The notes beneath the pieces were generated by a model. It saw only the letters and a program-made list of their open reading frames with translations, made no database searches and was not told where the DNA came from. The position numbers and the translations under genes were made by a program. Of a DNA stretch of 64,000 nucleotides, positions 9,710-13,778 are shown piece by piece; within the stretch, counting starts at the first letter, position 1, and each line of letters starts with the position of its first letter. Source of the DNA: Corynebacterium stationis (GTDB lineage: Bacteria; Actinomycetota; Actinomycetes; Mycobacteriales; Mycobacteriaceae). The DNA is taken from assembly GCF_001941345.1 (NCBI RefSeq), contig NZ_CP009251.1, forward strand, positions 1,116,001 through 1,180,000, in the 5' to 3' direction.

Positions 9710-10062
9710 ACCTTTCGGTGCTGCTTTATCCCTCACAGTGGGAGGCAATCTTAAACGAATTGCCTCCTAAGGCTGCGGACGCCGGGGTAGAGATCGACAA
9801 CATTGCCGTTGAGCAACTCTATAGTGCGTGCGAGAAAGAAAATGTGCTTGTCGATGACTACTGGCTGCGCCATGGCCAAGCACCCACCGGCGCCGAGGTT
9901 TACCGCATCATTGTCAACGGCGCATCTACCTTGCCGCTCAATAAATGCGCGGCGGCAGTTGCGGAGGCCTTCCCCGCAGATACCATTTGGTACGGCACCG
10001 CGGAGATCGGTCATACCGAGTTTGGGCTCGGCACGACCTTGGCGTGGACTAAGTCCCCTTAA
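9694..10062 (+). CDS. Hypothetical protein, 122 aa, translationally coupled to trmD
   Basis: Not recognised. The ATG lies 16 bp inside the 3' end of trmD in another frame, an arrangement that favours a real, coupled gene. The product is acidic, soluble-looking and without signal peptide or membrane segment. Notable stretches are LLYPSQWEAILNELPPKA at the start and AEIGHTEFGLGTTLAWTK at the end. Its last 14 bp overlap the 3' end of rtcB on the other strand. Role unknown. Confidence 0.72.
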   Translation: MDISVDLSVLLYPSQWEAILNELPPKAADAGVEIDNIAVEQLYSACEKENVLVDDYWLRHGQAPTGAEVYRIIVNGASTLPLNKCAAAVAEAFPADTIWYGTAEIGHTEFGLGTTLAWTKSP

Positions 10063-11254
10063 CGTTAAGCACCTGCCGCAGCTCGTGCTCTACCTCCACG
10101 AGCTTCGCCGCATCTTCCATGACCTGGTCAATGTCCTTGTAGGCATCGGGAATTTCATCAATCCATTCCTTGCCAGGGCGGTAGACGATGCCTTTCATCC
10201 GCGAATCCAGGTCCTCGGCAGTAAAGCGCTTGCGTGCTTCGGTCCTTGAGTAGCGTCGACCAGCGCCGTGCGGTGCCGAGCGCAGAGCCGGGGCAAAACC
10301 CTTGCCTTCAACCACATAGGAACGCGTGCCCATGGAACCCGGTATCAAGGCTTTCACGCCGACATCGGCAAGCACTGCTCCCTTGCGTGTTAACCACACA
10401 TCTTTGCTAAAGTGCTCTTCCTTGACCGTGTAGTTGTGGTGGCAGTTAATGCGTTCTTCCTCCGCCACCTCGGTGCCGATGAAATCGCCCAAGCACTGCG
10501 CGAACCTATCCATCATCTCTTCGCGGTTGAGGTAGGCAAAGTGCTGTGCCCAGTGCAGTTCGGTGATATAAGAGTCAAACTCCGCCGTGCCTTCGGTCAA
10601 GTAGGCAAGATCCCTATCAGGCAGACGTACCCAGTGCTTATCGCACTGCGTCTGCGCTGCGGCGATGTGCTTCTGCGCAATCTTATTGCCCACGCCACGT
10701 GAACCGGAGTGCAAGAACATCCAGACACGGTCTTTCTCATCCAAGCACAATTCAATGAAGTGGTTGCCGCCACCGAGTGAACCAAGCTGCTGACGCCACT
10801 TCGGCGAGTGCGAAAGGTCAACGCCATCGCGCTCGGCCATCTGCGCAAGCTCGCGTGCGCGGCGATCCGCAGATCCCTCTAGGTGCCACTCGTTGTAGTT
10901 ACCAGGCGATAGCGGAATGGCTGCCTCAATGGCATCGCGCAGCGGAACTAAATCTTCCGGCAGGTCGCTGGCGTGAAACTGTGTGCGCACGCCAATCATG
11001 CCGCAACCGATATCCACACCGACGGCAGCTGGGATCACCGCGCCGATGGTTCCGAAGACCGTGCCGACAGATGAACCCATACCAACGTGCGCATCCGGCA
11101 TTAGCGCCACATGCGGGTGGATAAAAGGCATGCCAGCGAGTTGCTTGGCCTGGGTCATCACAGCTGGTTCAAGTACGGAAGCAAAAGCTTCAACGTGGAC
11201 TTTCTCATTGAACTTGCGTGGTGCGGCCTTCTTCGGGCCGCGAGAACGAGACAT
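10049..11254 (-). CDS. rtcB: RNA-splicing ligase RtcB
   Basis: GTP- and Mn-dependent ligase that joins 2',3'-cyclic phosphate (or 3'-phosphate) and 5'-OH RNA ends, repairing cleaved tRNA or rRNA. Family signatures are present: VDIGCGMIGV with the metal-binding Cys, LGSLGGGNHFIEL, FLHSGSRG and APHGAGRRYSR with the His that becomes guanylylated. At 401 aa it is full length. The start codon is preceded by AAGGAG at good spacing. No archease or RtcA gene is adjacent. The roughly 180-nt leader holds a short peptide gene and an intrinsic terminator, listed separately, suggesting expression controlled by attenuation. Confidence 0.96.
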   Translation of the reverse strand: MSRSRGPKKAAPRKFNEKVHVEAFASVLEPAVMTQAKQLAGMPFIHPHVALMPDAHVGMGSSVGTVFGTIGAVIPAAVGVDIGCGMIGVRTQFHASDLPEDLVPLRDAIEAAIPLSPGNYNEWHLEGSADRRARELAQMAERDGVDLSHSPKWRQQLGSLGGGNHFIELCLDEKDRVWMFLHSGSRGVGNKIAQKHIAAAQTQCDKHWVRLPDRDLAYLTEGTAEFDSYITELHWAQHFAYLNREEMMDRFAQCLGDFIGTEVAEEERINCHHNYTVKEEHFSKDVWLTRKGAVLADVGVKALIPGSMGTRSYVVEGKGFAPALRSAPHGAGRRYSRTEARKRFTAEDLDSRMKGIVYRPGKEWIDEIPDAYKDIDQVMEDAAKLVEVEHELRQVLNVKGT

Positions 11255-11281
11255 GTGTCTTTCTCCTTATGTCGTGGGTAC

Positions 11282-11317
11282 AAAACAAAAAACCGGCGTC
11301 AGCAGATGCTGCGCCGG
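11282..11317 (-). terminator. Intrinsic terminator inside the rtcB leader (putative attenuator)
   Basis: Minus strand: CCGGCG-CAGC (11317-11308), tetraloop ATCT, then GCTG-A-CGCCGG (11303-11293), a 10-bp stem with one bulged A, followed at once by TTTTTTGTTTTG. It lies about 30 nt after the leader-peptide stop and about 28 nt before the start codon of rtcB. Confidence 0.8.
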
Positions 11318-11347
11318 AAAACCGTATTTTTGAAAAACTCAGACCAT

Positions 11348-11410
11348 TTAAGTCTCAGATTTTCTGCGCGCATGCAAAAAGAAGGATAGTTGCAGCTTGT
11401 ACAGATGCAT
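11348..11410 (-). CDS. Putative 20-aa leader peptide upstream of rtcB
   Basis: ATG at 11410 is preceded by AAAGGAG with a 6-nt gap, one of the best ribosome sites in the window. The frame encodes MHLYKLQLSFFLHARRKSET and ends TAA at 11348, just ahead of the terminator. Codons include CTA, AGA and AAA, a possible slow stretch. Distance to rtcB, strand and terminator position match leader peptides that control attenuation. There is no run of a single amino acid pointing to a particular charged tRNA. It is too short for homology; the call rests on layout. Confidence 0.55.
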   Translation of the reverse strand: MHLYKLQLSFFLHARRKSET

Positions 11411-11439
11411 TGCTGTCTCCTTTAGTCATGAACACGCGA

Positions 11440-11451
11440 ACCCTAAACCTA
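11440..11451 (-). promoter_or_regulatory. Putative promoter of the rtcB leader transcript
   Basis: Minus-strand TAGGTTTAGGGT gives two overlapping corynebacterial-type -10 boxes, the better being TAGGGT at 11445-11440. A transcript starting near 11433 would have about 22 nt before the leader peptide ATG. No good -35 is visible. Confidence 0.45.
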
Positions 11452-11478
11452 TCCCGCAGCGAGGGTTTTGGCAATAGC

Positions 11479-11507
11479 TAGGGTGAAAATCGATGGCTGC
11501 TAGACTC
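11479..11507 (+). promoter_or_regulatory. Putative tex promoter(s) for leaderless transcripts
   Basis: TAGGGT (11479-11484) precedes the ATG at 11493 by 8 nt, and TAGACT (11502-11507) precedes the in-frame ATG at 11514 by 6 nt. Either would start transcription at or very near a start codon. Confidence 0.45.
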
Positions 11508-13778
11508 ATTCGAATGATTGCAGCGACTATCGCACAAGAAATTGGGGTTCGCCCCGACCAAGTTGAAACCGCGCTCAAGCTTCTTGCGGAAGGCAATACG
11601 GTGCCGTTTATCGCCCGATACCGTAAGGAAGTCACTGGCGGTTTGGATGATACGCAGTTGCGCACGATTGAAACCCGCGCGACGTATCTTCGAGAACTCG
11701 AAGAGCGCAAGCAAGCAATTCTGGAAGCCATCGAAGAGCAAGGCAAGCTTAACGATGATTTACGCCGCGAAATCCTCGAATGCGACACCAAGGCGAGACT
11801 CGAGGATTTGTACTTGCCGTACAAAAAGCGCCGCAAAACCAAAGCGGATATTGCGCGTGAGGCAGGCTTGGAACCACTGTTGGAAGAACTCATTTCTCAA
11901 CCAGCCGCTGACCCGCAGGAGCTAGCAAGCAAGTATCTGCGTGAAGGCTTCGAGGATGAGAAGAAGGCACTCGATGGTGCCCGCGCGATCATCATTGACC
12001 GCTGCGCACTTGACGCGGATCTGGTGGGACAAGTCCGCGAAGAGATGTTTAGCAGCGGAACGATGGAAGCATCCGTTGTGGCAGGGAAAGAAACCGAAGG
12101 TGCGAAATTCAAAGACTACTTTGAGTTCGCCGAGCCGTTTTCCTCCTTGCCATCGCATCGGATCCTCGCGCTGTTGCGCGGTGAGTCTGAGGGCATCTTG
12201 CAGCTGAATCTCAATGCCGGCGACGATGATATTTACGAGAATATGATTGCCACCCGGTTTGAGCTAGACCGCAGCTCACAGTGGCTGTCACAGGCTGTGC
12301 GTTGGAGCTGGCGCACCAAGCTGTACATCTCAGCTGGGTTGGATGTGCGTATGCGCCTGAAGGAAGTCGCTGAGGAAGGTGCACTGCAGGTTTTTGCTAC
12401 CAATTTGCGCGACGTTTTGCTGGCCGCACCGGCTGGTCAGCGCGCGACTTTGGGCTTAGACCCGGGATACCGCAATGGCGTGAAGTGCGCCGTTGTGGAT
12501 CCAACGGGCAAGGTGCTTGATACCGCTATTGTTTACCCGCACCAGCCGCAGAACCAATGGTCTCAAGCAGTGCAAACGCTGTCTTCGTTGTGCGCGTCGC
12601 ACGGGGTTGACCTTCTGGCGGTGGGCAACGGTACCGCATCGCGTGAATCAGAAAAGCTGGCTGGGGAAGTAGCGGAGCTTATTGCCAAAGCAGGCGGGAA
12701 GCGCCCAACCCCGGTCGTGGTGTCTGAATCCGGCGCTTCGGTGTACTCGGCTTCGCAGATTGCTGCCGATGAATTCCCGAACATGGATGTTTCTTTGCGC
12801 GGTGCCGTATCGATTGCGCGACGCCTACAGGATCCTTTGGCAGAGCTGGTCAAACTTGATCCGAAAGCCATTGGTGTGGGGCAGTATCAACACGATGTCA
12901 ACCAAACGGCTCTCGCGCGCACTCTCGATGGTGTTGTCGAAGACGCCGTTAACGGTGTCGGCGTAGACCTCAATACTGCATCGGCGCCGCTGCTTGAGCG
13001 CGTTGCCGGAGTAAACCCCACCTTGGCGGATAATATCGTTGCCTACCGCAATGAGAACGGAAAATTTACTACGCGTAAGGAACTCAAAAAGGTTCCACGC
13101 CTAGGGCCTAAAGCCTATGAGCAATCCGCGGGCTTTTTGCGCATCACAGGTGGTGCCGATCCTTTGGACAGCTCCGCTGTGCACCCAGAGGCCTACCCGG
13201 TGGTACAAAAGATCGCCAAGTCAACAGGCCTTAGCGTCGATGAACTCATTGGCAACACGCGGGTGCTCAACACGCTGCAACCAGCTGACTTTGCTGATGA
13301 CACCTTCGGTATCCCGACGGTCACCGATATCATCGCCGAATTAGACAAGCCAGGACGCGATCCCCGCCCAGAATTTAAGACGGCAACCTTTAAAGAAGGC
13401 GTGGAGAAAATCTCCGACTTGGTTCCAGGAATGATCCTGGAGGGCACAGTCACCAACGTGGCTGCATTTGGCGCTTTCATCGACGTGGGTGTGCACCAAG
13501 ACGGGATGGTGCATATTTCTGCGATGAGCAACAAGTATGTTTCCGACCCGCACGAAGTGGTCCGCTCGGGCGAAGTAGTCAAGGTGAAAGTTTTGGAGGT
13601 CGATGTCGCACGTAAGCGCATTTCTCTTACGCTGCGCCTCGATGAGGATACCAACGCGCCGAAGAAACAAAGCCCGAAGAACTCTGTGAAGCAGCCGAGG
13701 CAGCCGAAGCAACCTGCGAAGAAAAAGCCCGCACCACGTGGCTCGATGGCGGATGCTTTAAAGAACGCGGGCTTTTAA
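11493..13778 (+). CDS. tex: Tex family transcription accessory / RNA-binding protein
   Basis: Conserved nucleic-acid binding protein related to eukaryotic Spt6. Domains in order: N-terminal Tex helical region ([26 protein letters not shown]), a YqgF-like RNase H fold ([20 protein letters not shown], about 325-445), helix-hairpin-helix repeats ([17 protein letters not shown], about 490-560) and a C-terminal S1 domain ([21 protein letters not shown], about 645-715), then a basic Lys/Pro tail. The start is either ATG 11493 (761 aa) or ATG 11514; the second matches the family N-terminus and a perfectly spaced -10 box. Divergent from the rtcB leader. Confidence 0.93.

Follow-up and report, generated by a model that had tools for sequence, protein, structure and literature searches.

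How the gene of the RNA ligase RtcB is controlled in Corynebacterium is the question raised by this locus. We know of no account of how RNA damage is sensed, and RtcB induced, in bacteria that lack RtcR. In Salmonella, the rtcBA operon has been reported to respond to tRNA halves through RtcR, a protein activator; in this RtcR-sigma54 control the target gene is the same as here and the signal is damaged tRNA, in the form of 5′ halves with a cyclic phosphate (PMC7790460). A search for RtcR matched none of 242 Corynebacterium genomes, and it did match E. coli, one of the 14 genomes used as controls. Control of Corynebacterium rtcB by RtcR was therefore rejected, and some other control of the gene is needed.

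The sequence analysed here is a stretch of 64,000 nucleotides of the Corynebacterium stationis genome (the window). An earlier note had read, on its minus strand, a −10-like box, an AAAGGAG site, a 20-codon frame, a terminator, a second ribosome site and rtcB, and all of these can be read directly (Table 1). Judged from sequence comparison and folding, the rtcB 5′ leader is, with a probability of about 0.82, a ribosome-mediated transcription attenuator that uses Gln as its control codon, unlike the protein activator RtcR.

The product of the window rtcB matched the RtcB-family profiles of NCBIfam with scores below the curated cut-offs. It was aligned to solved RtcB chains with an E value of 1e-27, and DIGCG, GNHF, HSGSRG and HGAGR, which we take to be the active-site motifs of RtcB, were kept or nearly so. 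Its homologues are named RtcB family protein, and it is 99% identical to the RtcB of Corynebacterium sp. J010B-136, the nearest named genome. The divergent neighbour of rtcB is a gene of 761 aa (11493-13778, plus strand) with S1-domain and helix-hairpin-helix matches, presumably tex. The start codon of this gene at 11493 has the promoter-like elements of rtcB at most about 50 bases upstream of it (region 11446-11493 of the window), and the two promoters probably overlap.

Table 1. Elements of the rtcB leader region in the window, in minus-strand order, with the gene itself.
Element	Position	Strand	Evidence and remarks
−35-like hexamer TTGCCA	11469..11474	−	Sequence; G165 and G027 have the identical hexamer, with 17 nt between it and a −10 that starts with TAG; TTGATT in G004
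−10-like hexamer TAGGTT	11446..11451	−	Sequence; TAGCGT in G027 and G004; 17-nt spacer after the −35-like TTGCCA
Shine-Dalgarno (SD) AAAGGAG of leader frame	11417..11423	−	Sequence; 6 nt before ATG
Leader frame MHLYKLQLSFFLHARRKSET	11348..11410	−	20 codons, ATG at 11410, stop TAA at 11350-11348; orthologues in G165, G027 and G004
Gln codon 7 (CAA), proposed control codon	11390..11392	−	Gln is the most enriched leader residue
Putative antiterminator 5′ strand TGC-A-TGCGC, leader codons 12-15	11368..11376	−	Stalled-ribosome folds; pairing core also in G027 and G004
Hairpin P1 across the leader stop codon, nested in the putative antiterminator	11332..11364	−	More stable than shuffles
Putative antiterminator 3′ strand GCGCAGCA, inside the terminator 5′ arm	11307..11314	−	Duplex and stalled-ribosome folds
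Intrinsic terminator hairpin CCGGCGCAGC-ATCT-GCTGaCGCCGG	11293..11317	−	−17.9 kcal/mol, 7 T among the 8 bases that follow; conserved in G165, G027 and G004
Terminator T tract TTTTTTGTTTT	11282..11292	−	Sequence
rtcB SD AAGGAG	11263..11268	−	Sequence
rtcB	10049..11254	−	401 aa, ATG at 11254, RNA ligase family RtcB

The transcription start of the rtcB leader is predicted at about 11440-11437. Only three of the six positions of the −10-like hexamer match TATAAT. A simple consensus scan of the window flagged neither the rtcB promoter nor the terminator, because of this weak match and of a bulge in the terminator stem; the promoter call therefore rests on conservation in three relatives, among which the spacing of the promoter was found by eye to be preserved. 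Rfam covariance models (T-box and other families) gave no match at the gathering threshold over the window and none at E ≤ 10 in 11240-11500, and a known Rfam cis-element as the rtcB leader was rejected for lack of such a match.

These three close relatives (G165, G027 and G004) keep the layout of frame, SD and terminator before rtcB. This persistence, together with its recurrence across the genus, places the layout beyond chance. The orthologous leaders are MHLYKLQLSFFSHARRKSET (G165), MYLHQLQKLSFSHARRKSKS (G027) and MHLYQLQLGSFWRARMWI (G004, with a GTG start). The changes among these leaders, read by eye, were partly synonymous (CTG/CTA, TAC/TAT) and the indels were whole codons. Hairpin P1 was more stable than shuffled sequence in the window (p 0.007), G027 (p 0.005) and G004 (p 0.001), and it persists in the latter two though built of quite different sequence. 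An alignment of the four close leaders was made for pair counting. Since the register of P1 differs from one species to another, the pairs were left uncounted and each leader was folded separately.

Our survey found rtcB (E ≤ 1e-60) in 78 of the 242 Corynebacterium genomes. The main clade was taken as the 59 best rtcB rows, down to G074 (at least 68% identity; 58 genomes), and the upstream region was read for 58 of them, the exception being G204, whose rtcB begins at the third base of the contig. At 52 of the 59 main-clade loci, a short frame that has an SD and one or more Gln codons was identified upstream of rtcB. Among the 58 regions read, no leader was found at G143, G109, G130 or the two G036 loci, and G190 was ambiguous. 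Fifty of the 52 leaders entered the statistics; those of G030 and G234, found after correction of the rtcB start, stayed outside. The 50 were reduced to a non-redundant set of 32 with peptide identity below 60%; no tree was used, so these 32 are not fully independent. Where a locus had several candidate frames the leader was picked by eye, and a check on the 41 loci with a single candidate, which include some divergent-clade loci, guards against this choice. The frame of rtcB itself has one internal stop codon in G030 (L120), and also in G209 (L180).

The other rtcB rows are divergent copies (63-71%) and paralogues (40-44%). A candidate frame was seen at 4 of the 21 such loci viewed, a count that leaves out G169, G084, G205 and the fragments of G191 and includes some uncertain rtcB starts. 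The four are G122, G131, G076 and G105, and the candidates of G131 and G105 contain Gln. No SD-led frame was found upstream of the 40-44% identical RtcB paralogue in five genomes (G191, G109, G041, G118 and G055; L186-L190), some of whose starts are uncertain or unassigned. A tRNA-like sequence was seen by eye about 300-220 bases upstream of the divergent-clade rtcB in L172 (G122).

Gln is the most enriched residue of the main-clade leaders. Gln accounts for 110 of the 847 residues (13.0%) in the 32 leaders, against 28.6 (sd 5.1) in base shuffles of each frame (z 16), and it occurs in all 32, against a mean of 18.5 and a maximum of 29 in the shuffles. Enrichment was next highest for Leu (z 5.5), followed by Phe (3.9), His (3.1) and Lys (3.1). 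When a similar rule was applied to other parts of 12 Corynebacterium loci, it gave 119 SD-led short frames with 2.7% Gln, and a Gln content of at least 10% was reached by 1.7% of them versus 78% of the leaders. The 17 background frames with little overlap with long frames had 4.3% Gln, and 11.8% of these reached 10%. The loci with a single candidate frame gave 11.3% Gln. Codons 2-17 of the leaders hold 95 Gln in 511 positions, and the later codons 15 in 336. Both Gln codons are used, with CAA:CAG of 38:72 in the leaders versus 31:57 in seven genes of the window. From this usage the constraint seems to act on the amino acid Gln or its tRNAs, and not on a single codon or on base pairing. The leaders are widely diverged, and beyond close relatives they have little besides Gln in common; the window leader has a single Gln.

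A strong terminator, defined by a hairpin energy below −12 kcal/mol and at least 5 T in 8 bases, was found between the leader stop and rtcB at 21 of the 32 loci, while six shuffled sets gave 5, 5, 1, 5, 6 and 3. No terminator passed this cut-off in the other 11 leaders. Pairing of the leader with the terminator 5′ arm and loop was compared with dinucleotide shuffles of the leader at 23 loci, namely these 21, G041, whose terminator was placed by hand, and G232, which falls below the T cut-off. As a set, the loci paired better than the shuffles (Fisher p 1.2e-6); taken singly, 6 of the 23 had p < 0.05 and 17 had p ≥ 0.05. Runs of 8-12 leader:arm pairs occur in five loci. The longest pairings are those of G111 (18 pairs with one bulge), G147 (12), G051 (10), G057 (10 contiguous) and G065 (8), the last with the leader VRFYQQLHLLQKPAPPCLLNVLNF. 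The duplex was unsupportive at G055 (p 0.90), G231 (0.78) and G004 (0.52), and L006, which has a weak hairpin, gave p 1.0. In the group of leaders with MRAYQLLQQ, one antiterminator pair, read by eye, is A-U in G057, G-U in G046 and G-C in G206, with other pairs lost there.

One near-invariant leader, MMT[Y/H]NNQPLGR[F/L]FKQLF, is common to G150, G211, G129, G073, G039, G151, G075 and G016 (L157, L158, L161-L165 and L167), and the single member of this group in the non-redundant set has no T-tract terminator. Two relatives, L013 and L014, instead have folds in which the sequence that follows the leader stop forms a long stem with a strand closer to rtcB.

Folding with a stalled ribosome was carried out at 22 loci, G041 being left out. 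The mean occupancy of the terminator arm by the leader was 0.68 with the ribosome at the best Gln codon versus 0.14 with the ribosome at the stop codon, a contrast that is partly built in, as masking by a ribosome reduces pairing whatever the sequence. At the first Gln codon the occupancy was 0.64, versus 0.52 in free-leader shuffles (sd 0.03, maximum 0.579, 40 sets). In the window it was 0.97 with the ribosome at Gln7 and 0.30 at the stop, with a free-leader shuffle p of 0.02, which is the floor of the test; the window leader:arm duplex alone was not significant (p 0.21-0.34). The folds of the window, G027 and G004 have a common antiterminator core, TGC(A)TGCGC:GCGCAGCA, with P1 nested within it. 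G217 runs opposite to the model, with an occupancy of 0.85 when the ribosome is at the stop. Of eight complete leaders modelled with a ribosome stalled on them, seven kept the terminator as the most stable fold; the switch would therefore have to be kinetic. Kinetic switching is the usual assumption for attenuators.

The recurrence of the frame, the Gln codons, the terminators and the complementarity across the genus favours the ribosome-controlled attenuation that the earlier note had proposed, with a different antiterminator and with Gln as the control codon, which the note had not named. The pairing it had named, GCTGCG (11460-11455) with CGCAGC, was rejected, as the GCTGCG half sits in the promoter spacer between the −35 and the −10 and is probably not transcribed; the one inside the leader frame fits. 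In the attenuator that we propose, a ribosome reaching the leader stop codon would cover the antiterminator strand and P1, the terminator would form, and transcription would end before rtcB. When Gln decoding is slow, the ribosome would wait upstream of the antiterminator strand, the downstream leader codons (HAR in the window) would pair with the terminator 5′ arm around P1, the terminator could not form in time, and rtcB would be transcribed. We infer that the leader is translated, that ribosomes stall on it, that the effect has this direction, and that the natural trigger is either a tRNA-Gln that has been damaged or left uncharged, or general translation stress.

Two other readings of the region have to be weighed against attenuation. 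Translational control, by which the leader would alter access to the rtcB ribosome site and not transcription, could account for the 11 leaders without a terminator above the cut-off, but it is improbable, since the rtcB SD of the window lies beyond the strong terminator and its T tract and outside the proposed antiterminator. There is similarly little chance that this is an ordinary 5′ UTR, with a constitutive terminator that lowers rtcB expression and a short frame that is fortuitous or a small protein gene. Short frames behind SD-like purine runs are indeed not rare, as both strands of the 12 loci, about 7 kb each, gave the 119 background frames. However, the Gln enrichment, the recurrence of the terminator and the complementarity over diverged leaders argue against such a UTR, and so does the preservation of the peptide in close relatives by partly synonymous changes and codon-sized indels. 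The distant leaders, moreover, share little but Gln, unlike a working small protein.

The closest precedent for the rtcB leader as an attenuator, and its functional parallel, is PA5471.1-armZ (PA5471) of Pseudomonas aeruginosa. As in Corynebacterium, a leader peptide, a terminator and a proposed antitermination are reported before an RtcB-like gene; drugs that target the ribosome are reported to act on the armZ leader, in which Gln3 and Phe4 are implicated in cells that lack the CCA-adding enzyme (PMC12057347, PMC13041342). The earlier note had known of no leader-peptide control of rtcB, and our literature search, which had most subscription journals outside its range, found none for rtcB itself, but that of the RtcB-like armZ had already been reported. 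In contrast to RtcB, ArmZ has been described as an anti-repressor of MexZ, the repressor of an efflux pump, and its leader has 13 aa (PMC3516279). The Gln signature of the rtcB leaders recurs across the genus Corynebacterium, and the ten neighbours of rtcB that were scanned show no comparable partner. By analogy, the two leaders may work alike; we do not claim that the rtcB leader belongs to the armZ system.

The trp, leu and ilv attenuators of Corynebacterium and Streptomyces are also reported to have a leader frame, control codons, an antiterminator and a terminator (PMC1262725, PMC4046766, PMC10272879), and leader-peptide attenuation in C. glutamicum has been reported for trp, leuA, ilvB and aroF (PMC4046766; see PMC1262725). 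These attenuators control the synthesis or charging of the amino acid that they sense, whereas the rtcB leader has Gln codons before a repair ligase. It is thus unlike a trp-type attenuator of amino-acid biosynthesis, its target being an RtcB-family RNA ligase. In the main text of the 2005 attenuator survey, the words glutamine, RtcB and RNA ligase do not occur (PMC1262725).

A wider scan covered 78 of 80 rtcB loci, L018 and L071 starting too near contig ends. No comparable Gln-rich leader was seen in its Rhodococcus and Mycobacterium rows. Two Aeromicrobium loci (L056 and L079) have an SD-led frame ending in a common VDAPHPE stretch and a strong terminator before rtcB, with no Gln bias; this frame is possibly an independent leader. 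In Curtobacterium (L077), one candidate frame led by an SD lies about 210 bases upstream of rtcB and is Gln-rich, with several such codons.

If the rtcB leader is an attenuator, the next question is what slows Gln decoding. One possible trigger, held tentatively, is glutamine supply, which would act through the charging of tRNA-Gln and would place rtcB in a starvation response. Classical attenuators respond to charging, and CAA and CAG are both used in ordinary proportion, so no single tRNA-Gln stands out; against this, we know of no part that RtcB plays in glutamine metabolism. In C. glutamicum, cg3329 was reported to be altered at the transition phase only with sigB present (m 1.09; PMC1779776), and we take cg3329 as rtcB because an RtcB homologue is listed as cgp_3329. 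However, this can be a promoter effect, and the reported regulation of Salmonella rtcB by damaged tRNAs (PMC7790460) also counts against glutamine supply.

General translation stress, as in PA5471.1-armZ, is a conjecture of equal standing, in which any agent that slows ribosomes would stall translation of the leader and the Gln codons would only set the site where the ribosome waits. It agrees with the reported answer of the armZ leader to ribosome-targeting drugs and with the part of Gln3 and Phe4 in the cca mutant (PMC12057347, PMC13041342), as well as with the richness of the Corynebacterium leaders in Leu, Phe, His and Lys. But the z score of Gln is far above those of these four residues, and a codon-blind sensor would need no such bias.

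Nearly as probable is a dedicated sensor of tRNA-Gln damage, which would close a repair loop without a regulatory protein. Toxin or phage-defence ribonucleases would cut tRNA-Gln, ribosomes would stall at the Gln codons, and the terminator would be bypassed. The RtcB so made would reseal the same tRNAs, which would restore leader translation and turn the gene off again. The neighbours of rtcB were searched with Pfam for a clue to an RNA-cutting agent, and the ten genes (nine from six loci and one from the window) gave unrelated families or none. A Fic/DOC-domain gene adjoins rtcB in Corynebacterium striatum (L013, 4284-5561, minus strand).

A genus-wide Gln-codon attenuator, if true, would be a direct and protein-free link from the state of tRNA to the expression of an enzyme capable of tRNA repair, and Gln decoding would be the step to examine for the natural substrate of RtcB in Corynebacterium. 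If the leader is in fact a sensor of tRNA-Gln damage, it would solve by way of the ribosome a problem for which enterobacteria rely on RtcR. Together with PA5471.1-armZ, such a sensor would suggest that the coupling of the RtcB family to the translation of a leader arose more than once.
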